In this document: piece after piece, positions 6,138-21,225 of the stretch
Numbering within the stretch: the stretch's first letter is position 1
Layout: each line of letters opens with the position of its first letter
NCBI GenBank assembly: GCA_000818095.1
Contig: CP009416.1
Location: forward strand, 1,410,501-1,474,500
DNA from: Jeotgalibacillus malaysiensis
GTDB taxonomy: Bacteria; Bacillota; Bacilli; Bacillales; Jeotgalibacillaceae
Direction: 5' to 3'
DNA: 64,000 nt
Notes under the pieces: model-generated
What the model saw: the letters and a program-made list of their open reading frames with translations, nothing else
Told to the model about the DNA's origin: nothing
Database searches by the model: none
Position numbers and translations under genes: made by a program

Positions 6138-7547
6138 ATGGTAGTTGGAGATTTCCCAATCGAAACAGATACTCTCGTCATCGGATCAGGTCCTGGAGGT
6201 TATGTTGCAGCAATCCGTGCAGCACAGCTTGGACAAAAGGTAACAATTGTTGAGAAAGAAAATCTTGGCGGCGTATGTCTAAATGTTGGCTGTATCCCGT
6301 CAAAAGCAATGATCTCAATCGGTCACCGCTATGAGCATGCTAAAGGCTCAGATGACATGGGAATCGTAGCTGAAAATGTGAAGATTAACTTTGATAAAGC
6401 TCAGGAATGGAAAGCCGGTGTAGTTAAAAAACTTACTGGTGGCGTTGAAGGGCTTCTAAAAGGTAATAAAGTAGAAATCGTTCGCGGTGAAGCATACTTT
6501 GTGGACAGCGAAACAGTGAAAGTAATGGATGAAAAGAATTCTCAAACTTACAAGTTTAAGAATGCAATTGTGGCAACCGGTTCACGCCCGATTGAAATTC
6601 CATCTTTCAAATTCTCTAAGCGTGTACTTGATTCAACTGGTGCTCTTGCACTTAAAGAAATCCCTAACAAGCTTGTTGTAATCGGTGGAGGATATATCGG
6701 TACTGAGCTTGGAACTGCATATGCAAATATGGGTTCTGAAGTAACAATTCTTGAAGGTGCTGATGACATCCTTGGCGGATTCGAAAAGCAGATGACTTCA
6801 GTTGTTAAAAAAGGTCTGAAGAAAAAAGGCGTTGACGTCATTACAAAAGCAATGGCTAAAGGCGTTGAAGAGTCTGAAGACGGCGTGAAAGTATCGTACG
6901 AAGCTAAGGGTGAAGAAGTAACAATTGATGCTGATTACGTACTTGTAACTGTTGGTCGTCGTCCAAATACAGATGAGCTTGGTCTTGACCAGGTTGGTAT
7001 TGAAATGACTGACAAAGGAATTATCAAAACAGACAAGCAGTGCCGTACAAGCGTTGATAATATCTATGCGATCGGTGACATCGTTGACGGACCACCACTT
7101 GCGCATAAAGCTTCTTACGAAGGTAAAATCGCTGCTGAAGTAATCGGCGGAGAAAAGTCTGAAGTAGACTACCTTGCAATTCCTGCTGTATGCTTCACAG
7201 ATCCTGAACTGGCAACAGTTGGATATAACGAAGCACAGGCAAAAGAAGAAGGTATTGAAGTGAACGCTGCCAAATTCCCATTTGGTGCAAATGGACGAGC
7301 GCTTGCACTTAACCAGACTGAAGGTTTTGTTAAGCTTGTAACGCGTAAAGAAGATGGCTTGATCATTGGAGCACAGATCGCTGGTGACGGCGCTTCTGAC
7401 ATGATCGCTGAGCTTGGTCTTGCAATCGAAGCAGGAATGACTGCTGAAGATGTGGCAATGACAATCCACGCTCACCCAACTTTAGGTGAAATTTCTATGG
7501 AAGCTGCAGAAGTAGCACTTGGAACACCTATTCATATCGTGAAGTAA
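6138..7547 (+). CDS. pdhD: Dihydrolipoyl dehydrogenase (E3 of PDH)
   Basis: Flavoprotein that reoxidises the lipoyl groups of E2 with NAD. The FAD site [14 protein letters not shown] is near residue 12, the redox-active pair is C47/C52 ([13 protein letters not shown]), the NAD site is [10 protein letters not shown], and the active-site base is H446 in HAHPTLGE. 469 residues, normal length. It lies 4 bases after pdhC and is followed by a strong terminator, so it closes the operon. Confidence 0.97.
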
Positions 7548-7667: not shown

Positions 7668-8507
7668 TTGAAAATTTATGCACCAGTGGCTGTCTCAGCA
7701 GCGCTATTACTTGCTGCATGCAGCTCAGAAGAAGCAGAGCAGCCGAAAGAACAAGAGCAGGAACAGGCAGTATCATCTGAAGAGAGTACAGATGAACCTG
7801 TTGAAGAAAATACGGAAGTAGAAGAAGCAGTTGAAGAGTCAGAAGAAACTGCCGCAGAACCAGTTGAGCCATTGTATGAAATCAATGAAGCAAATTGGTC
7901 TGTAACACCAATCAGTGATGCGCCTTCAAATGTTGTTTTACTGACAATTGATGATGCGCCTGATCAGCATGCAGTAGAAATGGCTCAAAAATTACATGAA
8001 ATGGATGCCCCGGCTATCTTTTTTGTGAATGGTCACTTCTTGGACACGCCTGAGGAAGAAGAGATGTTAAAAGAAATTCACGAATTAGGCTTTCCGATCG
8101 GGAATCATACTTTTTCACATCCGAATTTAAGAGAGATTTCAGAAGAAGAACAGCGTGAAGAAATTATTTCTCTAAGTGATCGCGTCGAAGAAATCATTGG
8201 TGAACGTCCTAAATTCTTCAGAGCGCCATTTGGTGCTAACACTGACTTTACAGAATCACTTGTAAAAGAAGAAGGAATGGTACTGATGAACTGGACATAC
8301 GGATATGACTGGGAAGCAGATTATCAGGATGCAGCAGCACTTGCTGACATTATGGTAAACACTGAATACCTTTCACCAGGTGCGAACCTGCTGATGCATG
8401 ACCGTACCTGGACAAATGAAGCACTGACTGACATTGTCGAAGGTCTCAGAGCAAAAGACTATTCAATTGTAGATCCAAAAACAATCAATGGATATGAAGA
8501 GAATTAA
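7668..8507 (+). CDS. Polysaccharide deacetylase (NodB-domain) lipoprotein
   Basis: Likely an extracellular, membrane-anchored deacetylase of N-acetylated glycans such as peptidoglycan. The start is TTG after GGTGAGG. The signal peptide has a lipobox LLLAAC near residue 18, then a Glu-rich linker to about residue 65. The NodB homology domain has the metal/catalytic motifs TIDDAPD, HTFSHPN and RAPFG, followed by LLMHD. The second aspartate of motif 1 is present. It stands alone between two terminators; the substrate is not shown by the sequence. It occupies the place where B. subtilis has slp. Confidence 0.85.
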   Translation: MKIYAPVAVSAALLLAACSSEEAEQPKEQEQEQAVSSEESTDEPVEENTEVEEAVEESEETAAEPVEPLYEINEANWSVTPISDAPSNVVLLTIDDAPDQHAVEMAQKLHEMDAPAIFFVNGHFLDTPEEEEMLKEIHELGFPIGNHTFSHPNLREISEEEQREEIISLSDRVEEIIGERPKFFRAPFGANTDFTESLVKEEGMVLMNWTYGYDWEADYQDAAALADIMVNTEYLSPGANLLMHDRTWTNEALTDIVEGLRAKDYSIVDPKTINGYEEN

Positions 8508-8595: not shown

Positions 8596-8644
8596 TTGTA
8601 TTTTTTACCCTGAAGCGTTAAAATATTAAACGAAAGCGCTTACA
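8596..8644 (+). promoter_or_regulatory. Promoter with overlapping cre (CcpA) site for a small RNA
   Basis: TTGTAT (8596-8601), a 17-base spacer and TAAAAT (8619-8624) predict a start near 8631. CGAAAGCGCTTACA (8631-8644) matches the cre consensus TGWAANCGNTNWCA at 13 of 14 positions and sits on the predicted start, which would place it for repression by CcpA. Confidence 0.6.
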
Positions 8645-8747
8645 AGCATATGGGGATGGGAGTAAGCCGAACGGGTGAGCAATCTATATATACTCGTCAT
8701 GAATAATAAGGGAAAGAAAAGCTGATGCCCGTTGCATCAGCTTTTTT
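8631..8747 (+). ncRNA. Predicted small RNA in the SR1 position (pdhD-speA interval)
   Basis: A promoter, a cre site and a very strong terminator (AAAGCTGATGC / GCATCAGCTTT, 8718-8744, then T) bound a transcript of about 115 bases that carries no convincing gene. The longest ATG frame has 18 codons and no ribosome binding site. In B. subtilis the dual-function regulatory RNA SR1 is encoded between pdhD and speA and is repressed by CcpN and CcpA; position and cre control match, but I find no SR1P-like reading frame. The 5' half is G-rich (GGGGATGGGAG). Confidence 0.5.
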
Positions 8748-8762
8748 CTTTTCTGAGATATT

Positions 8763-8956
8763 GGCTTTGTTAAAGCTGGCTGTTGATGTCAGCTACTGGG
8801 GGATGCTTTTTAGCAGGTGCGCCATTTTGTGGCGCCATCCCCGCCTCCTCGTCTTTCCTCCTGGAGTCGCCTCTTTTGCTAAAATCAACAGCTGTGTTAA
8901 TGACCAATGTTATTTCGTGCAGCCGGGGCTACATTCGCCAGCTAAATTTAACAAAG
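8763..8956 (+). repeat. Degenerate, rearranged copy of the 195-bp dispersed element
   Basis: Begins GGCTTTGTTAAAG and matches the reverse complement of the copies at 10329 and 21025 through the block CTTTTTAGCAGGTGCGCC and the GGCGCCATCCCCGCCTCCTCG core. It then lacks most of the GCTTCGCC-to-GGTCTC segment. At the far side the terminal arm (GTGTTAATGACCAATGTTAT) is inverted relative to the rest, and it ends TTTAACAAAG. No clear target duplication. It fills most of the 8748-8968 gap; nothing else is seen there. Confidence 0.7.
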
Positions 8957-8968
8957 TAAAAAGGCATC

Positions 8969-10159
8969 CTACAAATCAATTTCATCCATTCTGATTTCTA
9001 CTTCATCCATTCTCTCTGAAAGAATATCTGTGACATAGTTTTTGTGAGCAGGGAGGTCGCACCATCTGAATTCGTTTTGTTCAAATTCTCCAAGAGGGAC
9101 GACCTCATAGTCAGTATAGTCTTCAGTAAAAGACGTGAAGGTTGGGACAGCATAGACCGACTCGAAGGAAATCCTCTCTCCGTTTTTAACCAGGTCAAAC
9201 CCGATCATGGATCCTGTAAGCCGTTCGCAATCAAGCTGCGGCACTCTGTCATCAAATGGACCGGAGATAAAATTCCCGAGCGAATAAGCTACCAGAGCCC
9301 GCTGGTTATCAGGACCTTCAATCCACTCTATTGGCTGAAGGACATGAGGGTGATGACCGAGAATGATATCTGCTCCATTTTGTACGAGTTCATAAGCGAG
9401 TTTCTCCTGAGATTCGACGGGCTGCTGATACTCATTACCCCAGTGAATGCCGACAGCAACTACATCTGCAATCTCCTCAGCACGCGCAACATCATATAAA
9501 AGCTGATCTTCATTTCCGGTGAATATATTAACAGATTCGGGATATTCAACCGGAAGATTGGAGCTGTATGTACTTGAAATTAAAGCGATTGTGATACCTT
9601 GCTTTTCAATAACCGGAATGGCCCGCTGCTCATCAAATGATTGATAGACTCCGCTCAGAACAACATCTGGATAGTGATTTTTCCAAAAGGCCAAATTTCT
9701 TTCAAGCCCTTCATACCCCATATCAAGCGTATGGTTATTTGCCAATTGAAGCATATTAAAACCCGTTTCATAATAGTAGTGTCCGAGCGCATAAGGATTA
9801 TTAAAGACAAAGTCTCCATCTCCTAACCCGTATTCTGAACCGGTGATTGGCGTTTCCTGATTCGCATAAACAAAGTCACCTTTTTGAATCAGATGCCTGA
9901 CGTTAGCGAGAAGGGGGGCAAATTCAAAACTTCCATCCTTTTGCAGGGCATCGTATAAAATGGGACGTTCAACCAACAGATCACCAACTGCTGTGAAATG
10001 AGCTTTATGTAATGAATCAGACTGCGTTTTTGAACTGTCCGGATCGGCTTTTGCAGTATCGGTTTGACTGGGCTGCGGCGCGTTTACATAAATCAGATCA
10101 GCGGAACATGCGCTGATCAGCAGTAACAGAAGGACAACAGATAAAATTTTGTAAAACAA
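8969..10159 (-). CDS. CapA-family metallophosphatase-like lipoprotein
   Basis: Belongs to the CapA/PgsA family, linked in some species to capsule or poly-gamma-glutamate surface polymers. A lipoprotein signal (FYKILSVVLLLLLISAC) precedes a Ser/Asp/Gln linker. Family motifs follow: AVGDLLVERP, YANQETPITG, LQLANNHTLDMG, AVGIHWGNEY, GADIILGHHPHVLQ and AYSLGNFISG. I prefer the TTG start at 10159, with GGGGAG 9 bases upstream; an ATG at 10207 has no ribosome binding site. It is a single gene, without capBC/pgsBC neighbours, so a poly-glutamate role cannot be assumed. Confidence 0.8.
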   Translation of the reverse strand: MFYKILSVVLLLLLISACSADLIYVNAPQPSQTDTAKADPDSSKTQSDSLHKAHFTAVGDLLVERPILYDALQKDGSFEFAPLLANVRHLIQKGDFVYANQETPITGSEYGLGDGDFVFNNPYALGHYYYETGFNMLQLANNHTLDMGYEGLERNLAFWKNHYPDVVLSGVYQSFDEQRAIPVIEKQGITIALISSTYSSNLPVEYPESVNIFTGNEDQLLYDVARAEEIADVVAVGIHWGNEYQQPVESQEKLAYELVQNGADIILGHHPHVLQPIEWIEGPDNQRALVAYSLGNFISGPFDDRVPQLDCERLTGSMIGFDLVKNGERISFESVYAVPTFTSFTEDYTDYEVVPLGEFEQNEFRWCDLPAHKNYVTDILSERMDEVEIRMDEIDL

Positions 10160-10320
10160 AAAACATGTCTCCCCATAAATATTTCGTTTCCTTAAATAGT
10201 CTATCATGTACTCATACTAAAAACATGGTTAAATAGAAAAAATTACTACTTATTATTTTGAGTGCCTGTTTAGTTCTCGTGTAGAAAATCTTTAGTTGGA
10301 TTCACACGATGGTAATCTTT

Positions 10321-10532
10321 TAAGTAATCGCTATGTTAAAGACCAATGTAGTTTTTGCACAGCTGTTGATTGTAGCGAAAGGGGGGCGACTCCCAGTAGG
10401 AGAGCGTGACAGATGAGACCCCCGCAGGCGAAGCCGAGGAGGCAGGGATGGCGCCATAAAACGGCGCACCTGCTAAAAAGCGTCCCCCCTGTAGCGGAAA
10501 TCATCAGCCAACTTTAACAAGGCCTAAGTAAT
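10321..10532 (+). repeat. 195-bp dispersed non-coding element with 8-bp target duplication
   Basis: The element (10329-10524) starts CGCTATGTTAAAG and ends CTTTAACAAGGCC, imperfect inverted ends. It is flanked by the direct repeat TAAGTAAT (10321-10328 and 10525-10532). Inside is the GC-rich core GAGACCCCCGCAGGCGAAGC, then GGCGCCATAAAACGGCGC and GCTAAAAAGCGTCCCC. It contains no plausible gene. The remaining bases between capA and it (10160-10320) are AT-rich and show nothing else. Confidence 0.8.
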
Positions 10533-10569: not shown

Positions 10570-12090
10570 TTATTTAATCGCTCTATGTTCTTTAATCACA
10601 CGTAGCTTTGTTAATGTTTCATCCTGAGGTCCCTGAACAGGTAATCCTGCCTCAATATTCTCATGGATATATCTCAGGTTATCTTCTGTTACGATTTCAC
10701 CCGGGATAAAGATCGGGATCCCCGGTGGATATACCATAATAAATTCAGCGCATACCCTTCCTGCTGTTTCATCAAGCGGTAAGAGCTCTGTGTCTGCATA
10801 AAACGCTTCACGCGGCGTCACGGCAAGTAAAGGAATGTCTGGCAGCATAACTTCTGGAACTGAATGACTGCTGTCGTGTCTGAATTCTTTAGCGAGCTCC
10901 TGAATTGCTTTAACGAGCACGTCAGCTTCGTATTGTGTATCACCCGGTGTGACAATACATAGGATATTGTACAGATCCGACAGTTCAACCTCGAGATTGT
11001 ACTGTTCTCTCAGCCATACTTCAGCCTGATAGCCTGTGATGCCGAGCTCTTTAATTGAAATGATAATTTTTGTCGGATCATAATCAAATGTTGCAGGTGT
11101 ACCGAGAATTTCACTTCCAATGCACTTGATTTGATCTATTTCGCCAAGGCGCGCTCTAATGTCTTCAGCGAGATCAATCGATTGACTGATCAGTTCTCTT
11201 CCGTCAATTGCAAGTCTTCTTCTTGCTGTATCCAATGAAGCCAAAAGAGGATAGGAAGTCGAAGTTGTTGTCAGCATGCTGAGAATAGACTGCACACGCT
11301 TAGGTGAGACAAGTCCTTCTTTCACATTTAATACTGAGCTTTGTGTCATCGAACCACCAAGCTTATGAACGCTTGTAGCAGCCATGTCAGCACCAGCCTG
11401 CATAGCTGAAGCAGGCAGACGATTATGGAAGTGGATGTGAACACCATGTGCTTCATCCACTAATACCGGCACATTTTGTTCATGAGCGATTTTAACAATT
11501 TCTTTCAGGTCTGCTGCAATACCAAAGTATGTCGGATTAATCACAAGCACACCTTTAGCATCTGGGTGCTGTTCAAGTGCATGTGCTACTGAGATCGGTG
11601 TGATTCCATGAGAAATACCAAGTTCTTTATCCACTTCCGGATGAATGAAAATTGGGATAGCGCCACAGAAAACAATCGCTGACATAACAGATTTGTGAAC
11701 ATTTCTCGGGACAATAATTTTTTCGCCCGGACCGCAGACGCTCATCACCATTGTCATAATTGCTCCGCTTGTTCCCTGAACCGAAAAGAATGTATGATCA
11801 GCACCAAAAGCTTTTGCTGCTAGGTCCTGAGCATCTTTGATCAATGACTTTGGCTGATGAAGATCATCAAGCGGTGCAATGTTAATCAGATCAATCGATA
11901 ATATATTATCACCCGCAAACGCTCTGAACTCAGGGTCCATGCCGGCACCTTTTTTATGGCCGGGGATATGGAACTGAACTGGATTGCGGTCTGCATGTTT
12001 TTTTAATCCTGTGAATAACGGTGTATCATATTGTGTTAAAGTATGGTCTTTTCTCTCTACATTCAGCAGAGATGAAGGTGTATTGGACAA
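10570..12090 (-). CDS. speA: Arginine/lysine/ornithine decarboxylase, probably arginine decarboxylase
   Basis: PLP-dependent decarboxylase of fold type I with an Orn/Lys/Arg decarboxylase C-terminal domain; in B. subtilis SpeA makes agmatine for polyamine synthesis. Seen: QFHIPGHKKGAG near residue 40, FSVQGTSGAIMTMV, VLVDEAHGVHIHF and the PLP lysine in ATSVHKLGGSMTQSS. The C-terminal MVYPPGIPIFIPGE is typical. About 506 residues from TTG 12090, which has AGGTGA 10 bases upstream; a GTG at 12102 lacks a ribosome binding site. It lies in the same place as in B. subtilis, before yktA. Substrate is inferred from synteny. Confidence 0.9.
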   Translation of the reverse strand: MSNTPSSLLNVERKDHTLTQYDTPLFTGLKKHADRNPVQFHIPGHKKGAGMDPEFRAFAGDNILSIDLINIAPLDDLHQPKSLIKDAQDLAAKAFGADHTFFSVQGTSGAIMTMVMSVCGPGEKIIVPRNVHKSVMSAIVFCGAIPIFIHPEVDKELGISHGITPISVAHALEQHPDAKGVLVINPTYFGIAADLKEIVKIAHEQNVPVLVDEAHGVHIHFHNRLPASAMQAGADMAATSVHKLGGSMTQSSVLNVKEGLVSPKRVQSILSMLTTTSTSYPLLASLDTARRRLAIDGRELISQSIDLAEDIRARLGEIDQIKCIGSEILGTPATFDYDPTKIIISIKELGITGYQAEVWLREQYNLEVELSDLYNILCIVTPGDTQYEADVLVKAIQELAKEFRHDSSHSVPEVMLPDIPLLAVTPREAFYADTELLPLDETAGRVCAEFIMVYPPGIPIFIPGEIVTEDNLRYIHENIEAGLPVQGPQDETLTKLRVIKEHRAIK

Positions 12091-12199
12091 TTGAAAATTC
12101 ACCTCATTAACGGTATTGTTATCTAAAGAAGGATAACAGAAGAATTATATCATTTTGTAATAGAAAAAGATATATTTTAGATGGAAAGGAAGTTGTATC

Positions 12200-18419: not shown

Positions 18420-18697
18420 ACGTTAAATCATTGATGAGGTTAAAGTATACAGCAAGCGGCATTTACAGAGAGCCGGGATAGGTGGAACCCGGTATTGCCA
18501 GCTGTATATGACATCCCCTCGGAGTGGAACACTGAAATCTTTCAGTAGGTGTTCACGGACAATTTGTTCGTTAACAAAGAACAGTCTAACTGTTCATGAG
18601 GCAGCATTTGCTGTGAAGTAGGGTGGTACCATGAAAAGTCTTTCATCCCTATACAAAGGATCACGTATCTATTTGTATGGGATTGAAAGACTTTTTT
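18420..18697 (+). promoter_or_regulatory. T-box leader upstream of ilvB (probably tRNA-Leu)
   Basis: Stem I arms include ATACAGC (18447-18453) and GCTGTAT (18501-18507). Distal-loop bases GGTGGAAC and an AGAGA motif are present. A CTC triplet (18518-18520) is followed by GGAGTGG, pointing to a leucine specifier; an ATC at 18513 is a weaker alternative. The T-box AGGGTGGTACC is at 18620-18630, and its TGGT would pair with an uncharged ACCA end. The terminator (18634-18697) pairs AAAAGTCTTTC with GAAAGACTTTT, then T. A weak promoter (TTAACT, 18 bases, TATACG) may precede it. Confidence 0.92.
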
Positions 18698-21016: not shown

Positions 21017-21225
21017 TAATCTTTAGCTATGTTAAAGCCCAATGTTGTTTTCGCACAGCTGATGATTGTAGCGTAAGGGGGCGACTCCAGCAGGAGAAGC
21101 GTGACAGATGAGACCCCGCAGGCGAAGCCGAGGAGGCGGGGATGGCGCCACAAAACGGCGCACCTGCTAAAAAGCGTCCCCCTGAAGCGGAAATCATCAG
21201 CCAACTTTAACAAAGCCTAATCTTT
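21017..21225 (+). repeat. 193-bp dispersed element inside the ilv-leu operon, 8-bp target duplication
   Basis: The element (21025-21217) starts AGCTATGTTAAAG, ends CTTTAACAAAGCC and is flanked by TAATCTTT direct repeats (21017-21024 and 21218-21225). It is about 90 percent or more alike by eye to the copy at 10329-10524. It lies 41 bases after ilvH and about 120 before ilvC. It codes for nothing convincing. Its GC-rich core can fold strongly in the operon transcript. Confidence 0.85.

Follow-up and report, generated by a model that had tools for sequence, protein, structure and literature searches.

A small RNA (sRNA) gene between pdhD and speA of Jeotgalibacillus malaysiensis, in the interval occupied by SR1 in Bacillus subtilis, is real and conserved across the genus, and its G-rich core GGGGAUGGGAG is a perfect complement of a C-rich region of RoxS/RsaE. 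Because this 11-nt complement is both perfect and conserved, the sRNA probably soaks up RoxS, and we think it probable that the gene encodes a stand-alone, CcpA-repressed RoxS/RsaE sponge working like RosA. The original prediction, made for the 64,000-nucleotide stretch of DNA analyzed here (the window), had proposed a CcpA-linked sRNA in the SR1 interval with a possible pairing region in its G-rich 5′ half. Comparison of 12 Jeotgalibacillus genomes upholds this proposal: the sRNA is conserved at the locus in 12/12, a putative CcpA site (cre) lies on the predicted start, and the G-rich half, as the candidate pairing region, holds the conserved RoxS complement. The likely partner itself, RoxS/RsaE, was overlooked.

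Table 1. Features of the sRNA locus (window coordinates)
Feature	Position	Strand	Description
pdhD	6138–7547		One flank of the sRNA; name presumed (our own assignment)
Polysaccharide deacetylase gene	7668–8507		Between pdhD and the sRNA
Predicted sigma-A promoter	8596–8624	+	TTGTAT (8596–8601), 17-nt spacer, TAAAAT (8619–8624); read from the sequence
Predicted sRNA	8631–8747	+	About 117 nt; predicted start, end taken from the terminator
cre-like CcpA site	8631–8644	+	CGAAAGCGCTTACA; sits on the predicted start; 13/14 match to the presumed consensus
5′ hairpin	8639–8666	+	CUUAC (8639–8643, within the 3′ half of cre) pairs with GUAAG (8662–8666) around the G-rich core
Core	8652–8662	+	GGGGAUGGGAG; identical in 11/12 genomes; fully complementary to the C-rich region CUCCCAUCCCC of RoxS/RsaE
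ACGG	8671–8674	+	Short additional contact predicted with RoxS CCGU (RNAduplex and alignment)
Intrinsic terminator stem-loop	8715–8747	+	14 pairs
Capsule-synthesis-type (PGA_cap) gene	8969–10207	−	Between the sRNA and speA
speA (Orn/Lys/Arg decarboxylase)	10570–12102	−	Pfam assignment

The predicted transcript (Table 1) agrees with the length of about 115 bases first proposed and is shorter than SR1 (about 205 bases). The cre had been described as a 13/14 match, and this score was reproduced against TGWAANCGNTNWCA, which we take to be the consensus; the other 11 genus genomes have a 12/14 match at the same place, so that a putative cre lies on the predicted start in 12/12. The strong terminator of the original prediction also stands, and a 3′ hairpin appears in the predicted fold of all 12 genus sequences. 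The promoter, described as clear, did not hold up as well: its −35-like hexamer matches TTGACA at 3/6 positions, it was not reported by a consensus scan, and a script allowing two or fewer mismatches per hexamer located a promoter pair where expected in only 5/12 genomes. Against Rfam, the sRNA reached the gathering score of no family and returned only chance-level matches (E up to 10), among which there was no match to RsaOG, for which we presume Rfam to have a family. A T-box leader (RF00230, 106.6 bits) was found elsewhere in the window (18422–18653, + strand).

A DNA search of the J. malaysiensis genome and 100 relatives gave clear matches (E 4.9e-6 or better) in nine of the 11 same-genus relatives, and the best match outside the genus covered 43 bases (E 9e-5). 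A covariance model built from 10 sequences placed the sRNA at the locus in all 12 genus genomes (55–143 bits), including G010 (96 bits) and G002 (55 bits), both of which were missed in the DNA search; the G002 sRNA is the most divergent. Synteny was assessed by tblastn of the window neighbors. The pdhD and deacetylase genes occupy one flank in 12/12 genus genomes, and speA is found on the opposite flank in the window, in 10/11 relatives by locus search, and in G006 via a further locus (L094), with a PGA_cap gene intervening before speA in G000, G006, and G008. The 15-mer GGGGATGGGAGTAAG was present in 9 of 299 genomes from the order, all of them Jeotgalibacillus and corresponding to 9/11 genus members in the sample, and an exact pattern scan returned 12 records, eight from Jeotgalibacillus (including alimentarius, campisalis, proteolyticus, salarius, and terrae). 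In the sRNA alignment, the 5′ block is conserved, the middle drifts, and the terminators differ; CGTCATG occurs in 11/12 sRNAs and CGTCATGAATAA in nine. The surrounding DNA also contains a repeat of up to ~200 bases (8755–8965, 10358–10524, and 21054–21217; one direct, two inverted plus partial; 83–90% identity). Two copies flank the PGA_cap gene, another piece lies beside yqfL (L160 1330–1418), and the repeat resembles a small mobile or MITE-like element.

RoxS/RsaE was identified in all 12 genus genomes with its Rfam model (RF01820; 102–107 bits), and the J. malaysiensis copy is located about 101 kb before the window (C1:1309518–1309623). The exact complement of the core, CTCCCATCCCC, occurs at 30 sites in the 12 genomes: 11 are the sRNA's own antisense, 12 are RoxS (one per genome), and seven are scattered, compared with one site for the reversed control pattern. 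Contiguous pairing between GGGGAUGGGAG and CUCCCAUCCCC amounts to 11 pairs in 10 genomes, 14 in G010, and eight in G002, with the contact falling at RoxS nt 54–64 as counted from the start of the Rfam match. The stacking energy of the 11-bp helix (−26.3 kcal/mol) was reached by none of 3038 window tiles, the best other value being −20.7. Beyond the core, the sRNA 5′ end aligns partially with the RoxS reverse complement through TTAC, AACA, and ACGG blocks. Shuffled sequences aligned as well in 0–5 of 2000 trials in 11 genomes and in 71 of 2000 in G002; the highest alignment scores came from G004, G009, G008, and G005. The core is also Shine-Dalgarno-like, which counts against a RoxS-specific reading; RoxS contacts Shine-Dalgarno-like sequences in mRNAs. 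FsrA was considered as a second partner and rejected, as its model gave no match over the cut-off in the 12 genus genomes (weak matches in seven). Among the literature matches listed for RoxS, RsaE, or SR1P, Jeotgalibacillus is not named, and the titles and abstract openings returned for Jeotgalibacillus small RNAs contain no link to the present sRNA.

The conserved seed gives a clearer picture than either the RNAduplex energies or the predicted accessibility. Predicted sRNA-RoxS duplexes ranged from −29.6 to −35.4 kcal/mol, and for G000, 14 of 3039 window tiles were as low. Four genomes were compared with 1000 shuffles in each direction. For G000 (1 and 3) and G004 (3 and 0) very few shuffles were as low, so these two are distinct from background; G001 (68 and 49) and G002 (43 and 137) are not. 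Whole-length RNAduplex predictions contained very long loops, and other duplex and helix tests were used in their place. In predicted folds the core is partly paired (mean unpaired 0.38–0.64), and the RoxS region in G000 likewise (0.45).

CUUAC pairs with GUAAG, located where the core ends, and this places the core in a predicted 5′ hairpin; 98.3% of the hairpin cells are paired across 12 sequences. One two-sided stem change was seen, CUUUC/GAAAG in G010; covariation support for the hairpin is weak because this is a single event and 83 of 500 shuffles reach its score. The paired stretch of RoxS has a sole variable position among the 12 genes, and it also falls in G010, where GUAA becomes GAAA and the sRNA has CUUUC rather than CUUAC. 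These matched changes in the sRNA and RoxS are suggestive of pairing in trans but are confounded, because they represent one event that is shared with the hairpin and with the choice of cre sequence. In G001 the sRNA has CUUUC, yet RoxS retains GUAA.

Two gene leaders with RoxS complementarity were also noted. In Mesobacillus maritimus (L085; NZ_JACWFH010000012.1, 6173–6200, − strand), a thiolase-like gene has GCGCTTACACCATGGGGATGGGAGTAAG in its 5′ leader, which shares the cre, the hairpin arms, and the anti-RoxS core with the sRNA (27.7 bits, E 0.005 with R1, the sRNA's own model); this leader may pair with RoxS as part of the mRNA or may represent a related sponge. A conserved gene leader in G009 and G004 (L245/L246, ~315–332) contains GTCAAACAAAGGGG just before the ATG; this sequence complements the first RoxS C-rich region exactly, and the gene is a possible source of a RoxS target mRNA.

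SR1P (PF13790) scores over the cut-off in 204 of 249 genomes from the order and in 92 of 105 sampled genera. In J. malaysiensis the best match is under the cut-off (E 4.2), consistent with the original observation that no SR1P-like frame is present, and 11/12 genus genomes are without a match above it. The only genome over the cut-off, G002, has two SR1P copies, both elsewhere and none at speA. Of these off-site G002 copies (L076 1501–1605 and L083 1501–1602), one is an SR1P gene with CcpN-like sites and a cre and the second is a weaker SR1P-like frame ~14 kb from the first; the short sRNA is still at the original site. In other families, speA adjoins SR1P in 30/30 fetched loci, these being the 30 best-scoring. 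Their leaders share a common order of a promoter with CcpN-like sites, a cre, an AAAGGGG-type ribosome site, and AUG GGN; in the Jeotgalibacillus sRNA the order is cre, 7 nt, and then GGGGAUGGGAG. The SR1P start region of one such locus (L053), TATGGGGATGGG, has 12 nt identical to the sRNA. A second G-rich stretch was seen past the SR1P stop codon in several loci (L032–L034, L050, L052, L053, and L060; e.g., GGGGGATGAGGAG) and might contact C-rich RNAs.

A profile of SR1 leaders was built from 26 leaders of other families, four of the 30 being left out as near duplicates. Its top hit in the 64-kb window was 8624–8663 (8.7 bits, E 0.2; next 6.9), and it ranked the sRNA site first in 11/12 genus loci with weak scores (E 0.01–1.2), with no G002 match among the 40 best. 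The covariance check with SR1 homologues advised in the original prediction came out negative in the reverse direction, where model R1 scored no better than chance across 31 SR1P loci (best E 0.59). A CcpN-like site, scored with one or fewer mismatches against what we take to be the consensus, was found in 27/27 SR1 promoters versus 1/12 at the sRNA, where 173 of 1000 shuffles have one. CcpN control thus appears to have been lost at the sRNA promoter although J. malaysiensis encodes CcpN (NCBIfam equivalog NF053704, 341 bits); a CcpN-like frame lies beside a yqfL homologue in three other genomes inspected.

Other SR1P-less lineages were surveyed by seeking speA in 30 of 37 non-genus genomes (25 of the 37 inferred by elimination). 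Of the 22 loci examined, 16 were informative, because five (L123–L127) have a distant speA homologue (41–44% identity) in another context and one (L106) has a 157-base flank. Model R1 gave nothing above chance in the 22 loci (best E 0.53), and the core at one or fewer mismatches occurred once only, as GGGGATGGCAG in L120, which we place inside the deacetylase frame; a similar short RNA beside speA is therefore rejected for the 16 informative loci. PMC8501984 reports SR1 homologues in 139 species, only from Bacillus and Geobacillus. The shared locus, the leader-profile rank, and the lack of anything alike in these other lineages make descent of the Jeotgalibacillus sRNA from SR1 likely, if not proven. 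As for the two origins offered originally, synteny and the SR1-leader profile favor the base-pairing-only descendant over the unrelated RNA, tempered by the weak profile scores and the failure of R1 to reach SR1P loci.

If the sRNA descends from SR1, it could simply be a reduced SR1 that still represses SR1-type mRNAs such as ahrC, with the RoxS complement a by-product of a retained Shine-Dalgarno sequence. The locus and orientation are those of SR1, and a match to RoxS that is better than that of ordinary leaders is already present in SR1 leaders from other families: against G000 RoxS the SR1 leaders average −16.5 (n = 27) versus −10.7 for the leaders of 54 window ORFs, which were taken from 150 codons upward and include some spurious ones, with SR1-leader matches up to GGGGAUGGG in 3/27. 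We nevertheless consider this reading unlikely. Target prediction, as recommended at the outset, gave best contiguous ahrC helices of −8.9 to −14.8 kcal/mol at sites that differ between genomes; no complementarity to ahrC is conserved across the 12 genus genomes, and ahrC was rejected as a target on these grounds. Moreover, a ribosome site freed of its SR1P frame would not need to stay unchanged over 11–15 nt. Somewhat less probable again is that the transcript serves as a short mRNA, with the retained AUG GGA starting a tiny peptide whose translation RoxS represses. The SR1P-start-like AUGGGA (Met-Gly) is kept in 11/12 sRNAs, and RosA itself is described in PMC8216469 as having a 7-codon frame with a G-rich region for its ribosome site. 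By our reading, however, the AUG frame has 4 codons in G006, G011, and G007, 7 in G004 and G009, 16 in G000 and G008, and still other numbers in the remaining genomes, and SR1P or any other conserved peptide was rejected as no frame common to the 12 genus genomes was seen.

The GGA triplets in the core, together with a second CGGAUG in G006, G011, and G007, raise the prospect of a decoy for a GGA-binding protein such as CsrA, which is reported to bind B. subtilis SR1. In G000 and G008 the second motif reads CGGGUG, so its GGA is not conserved, and GGA binding alone would not predict an 11-nt perfect complement of RoxS; we give this explanation little credence. Least probable of all is a decaying SR1 relic with no present function. 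SR1P has indeed been lost here, and the other SR1P-less lineages examined have no similar RNA beside speA, but the cre and the 3′ hairpin are kept in 12/12 genomes and the core in 11/12 while the middle drifts.

Under the preferred reading of a RoxS sponge, CcpA would repress the sRNA through the cre on its start site, so that the sponge would be off in glucose. In poor carbon, CcpA would leave the promoter and the sRNA would titrate RoxS, freeing RoxS-repressed respiratory mRNAs. The 5′ hairpin is envisaged to display GGGGAUGGGAG for pairing with RoxS CUCCCAUCCCC, and the UUAC/AACA and ACGG flanks may lengthen the contact. The gene most likely arose from an SR1 gene that lost its SR1P frame and CcpN sites and kept its cre and G-rich leader. 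We tentatively extend this to a fuller proposal, on which our judgment is almost evenly balanced: in the Jeotgalibacillus ancestor, a dual-function SR1 would have turned into a dedicated RoxS sponge by dropping SR1P and CcpN control and by sharpening the GGGG-AUG-GG of the ribosome site and start codon, a region that in some SR1 genes partly matches RoxS as it stands, to an 11-bp anti-RoxS seed, with part of the cre doubling as the stem that displays it. Beside RosA and RsaI, this would make a third CcpA-linked sponge for RoxS/RsaE, independent of the other two. If this is true, a peptide-coding regulatory RNA was rewired in place into an sRNA sponge, and CcpA-controlled sponges coupling RoxS/RsaE to carbon catabolite repression arose repeatedly in Firmicutes. 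An RNA pair this small, conserved, and easily mutated offers a test bed for sponge action, and the locus illustrates that the SR1 site can be occupied by something other than SR1.

SR1/SR1P of Bacillales (PMC8501984, PMC8152036, PMC8464778) shares with the Jeotgalibacillus sRNA the interval, the orientation, a G-rich leader, and, in the loci fetched for this analysis, a cre near the start. The sRNA differs from SR1 in that it lacks SR1P, CcpN sites, and complementarity to ahrC and is about half as long; the CcpA site of B. subtilis SR1 is reported ~260 bp upstream (PMC8501984, PMC8152036, PMC8464778). Staphylococcus aureus RsaI (RsaOG) is a stand-alone, CcpA-regulated RNA with G-rich regions that contacts RsaE, and its sponge role is proposed, not definitively proven (PMC8216469). 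The Jeotgalibacillus sRNA resembles it, at the level of sequence, as a CcpA-linked stand-alone RNA with a G-rich region facing RsaE, and is unlike it in that RsaI also carries a C-rich region for mRNAs (PMC8216469). RosA (S345) of B. subtilis is a RoxS/FsrA sponge of ~225 nt with three G-rich regions (PMC8216469); it is stand-alone and CcpA-repressed, its cre spans −1 to +12, and it contacts RoxS mainly at CRR1 (nt 28–42). Binding by the RosA G-rich regions shortens the half-life of RoxS and relieves the RoxS targets (PMC8216469, PMC8464778). A search for rosA by CRR1 complement in eight Bacillus-group (f43) and 20 other genomes gave no candidate in the 14 stretches inspected; these contained coding sequence, ordinary gene leaders, and, in L244, RoxS itself. 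We do not apply the name RosA to the Jeotgalibacillus sRNA. As in RosA, the predicted start of the Jeotgalibacillus sRNA carries a cre and a G-rich region is complementary to RoxS; unlike RosA, it is ~117 nt long, has one conserved core directed at RoxS nt 54–64, and occupies the SR1 site. By analogy, it most likely works like RosA, from a different address and through a different main contact.
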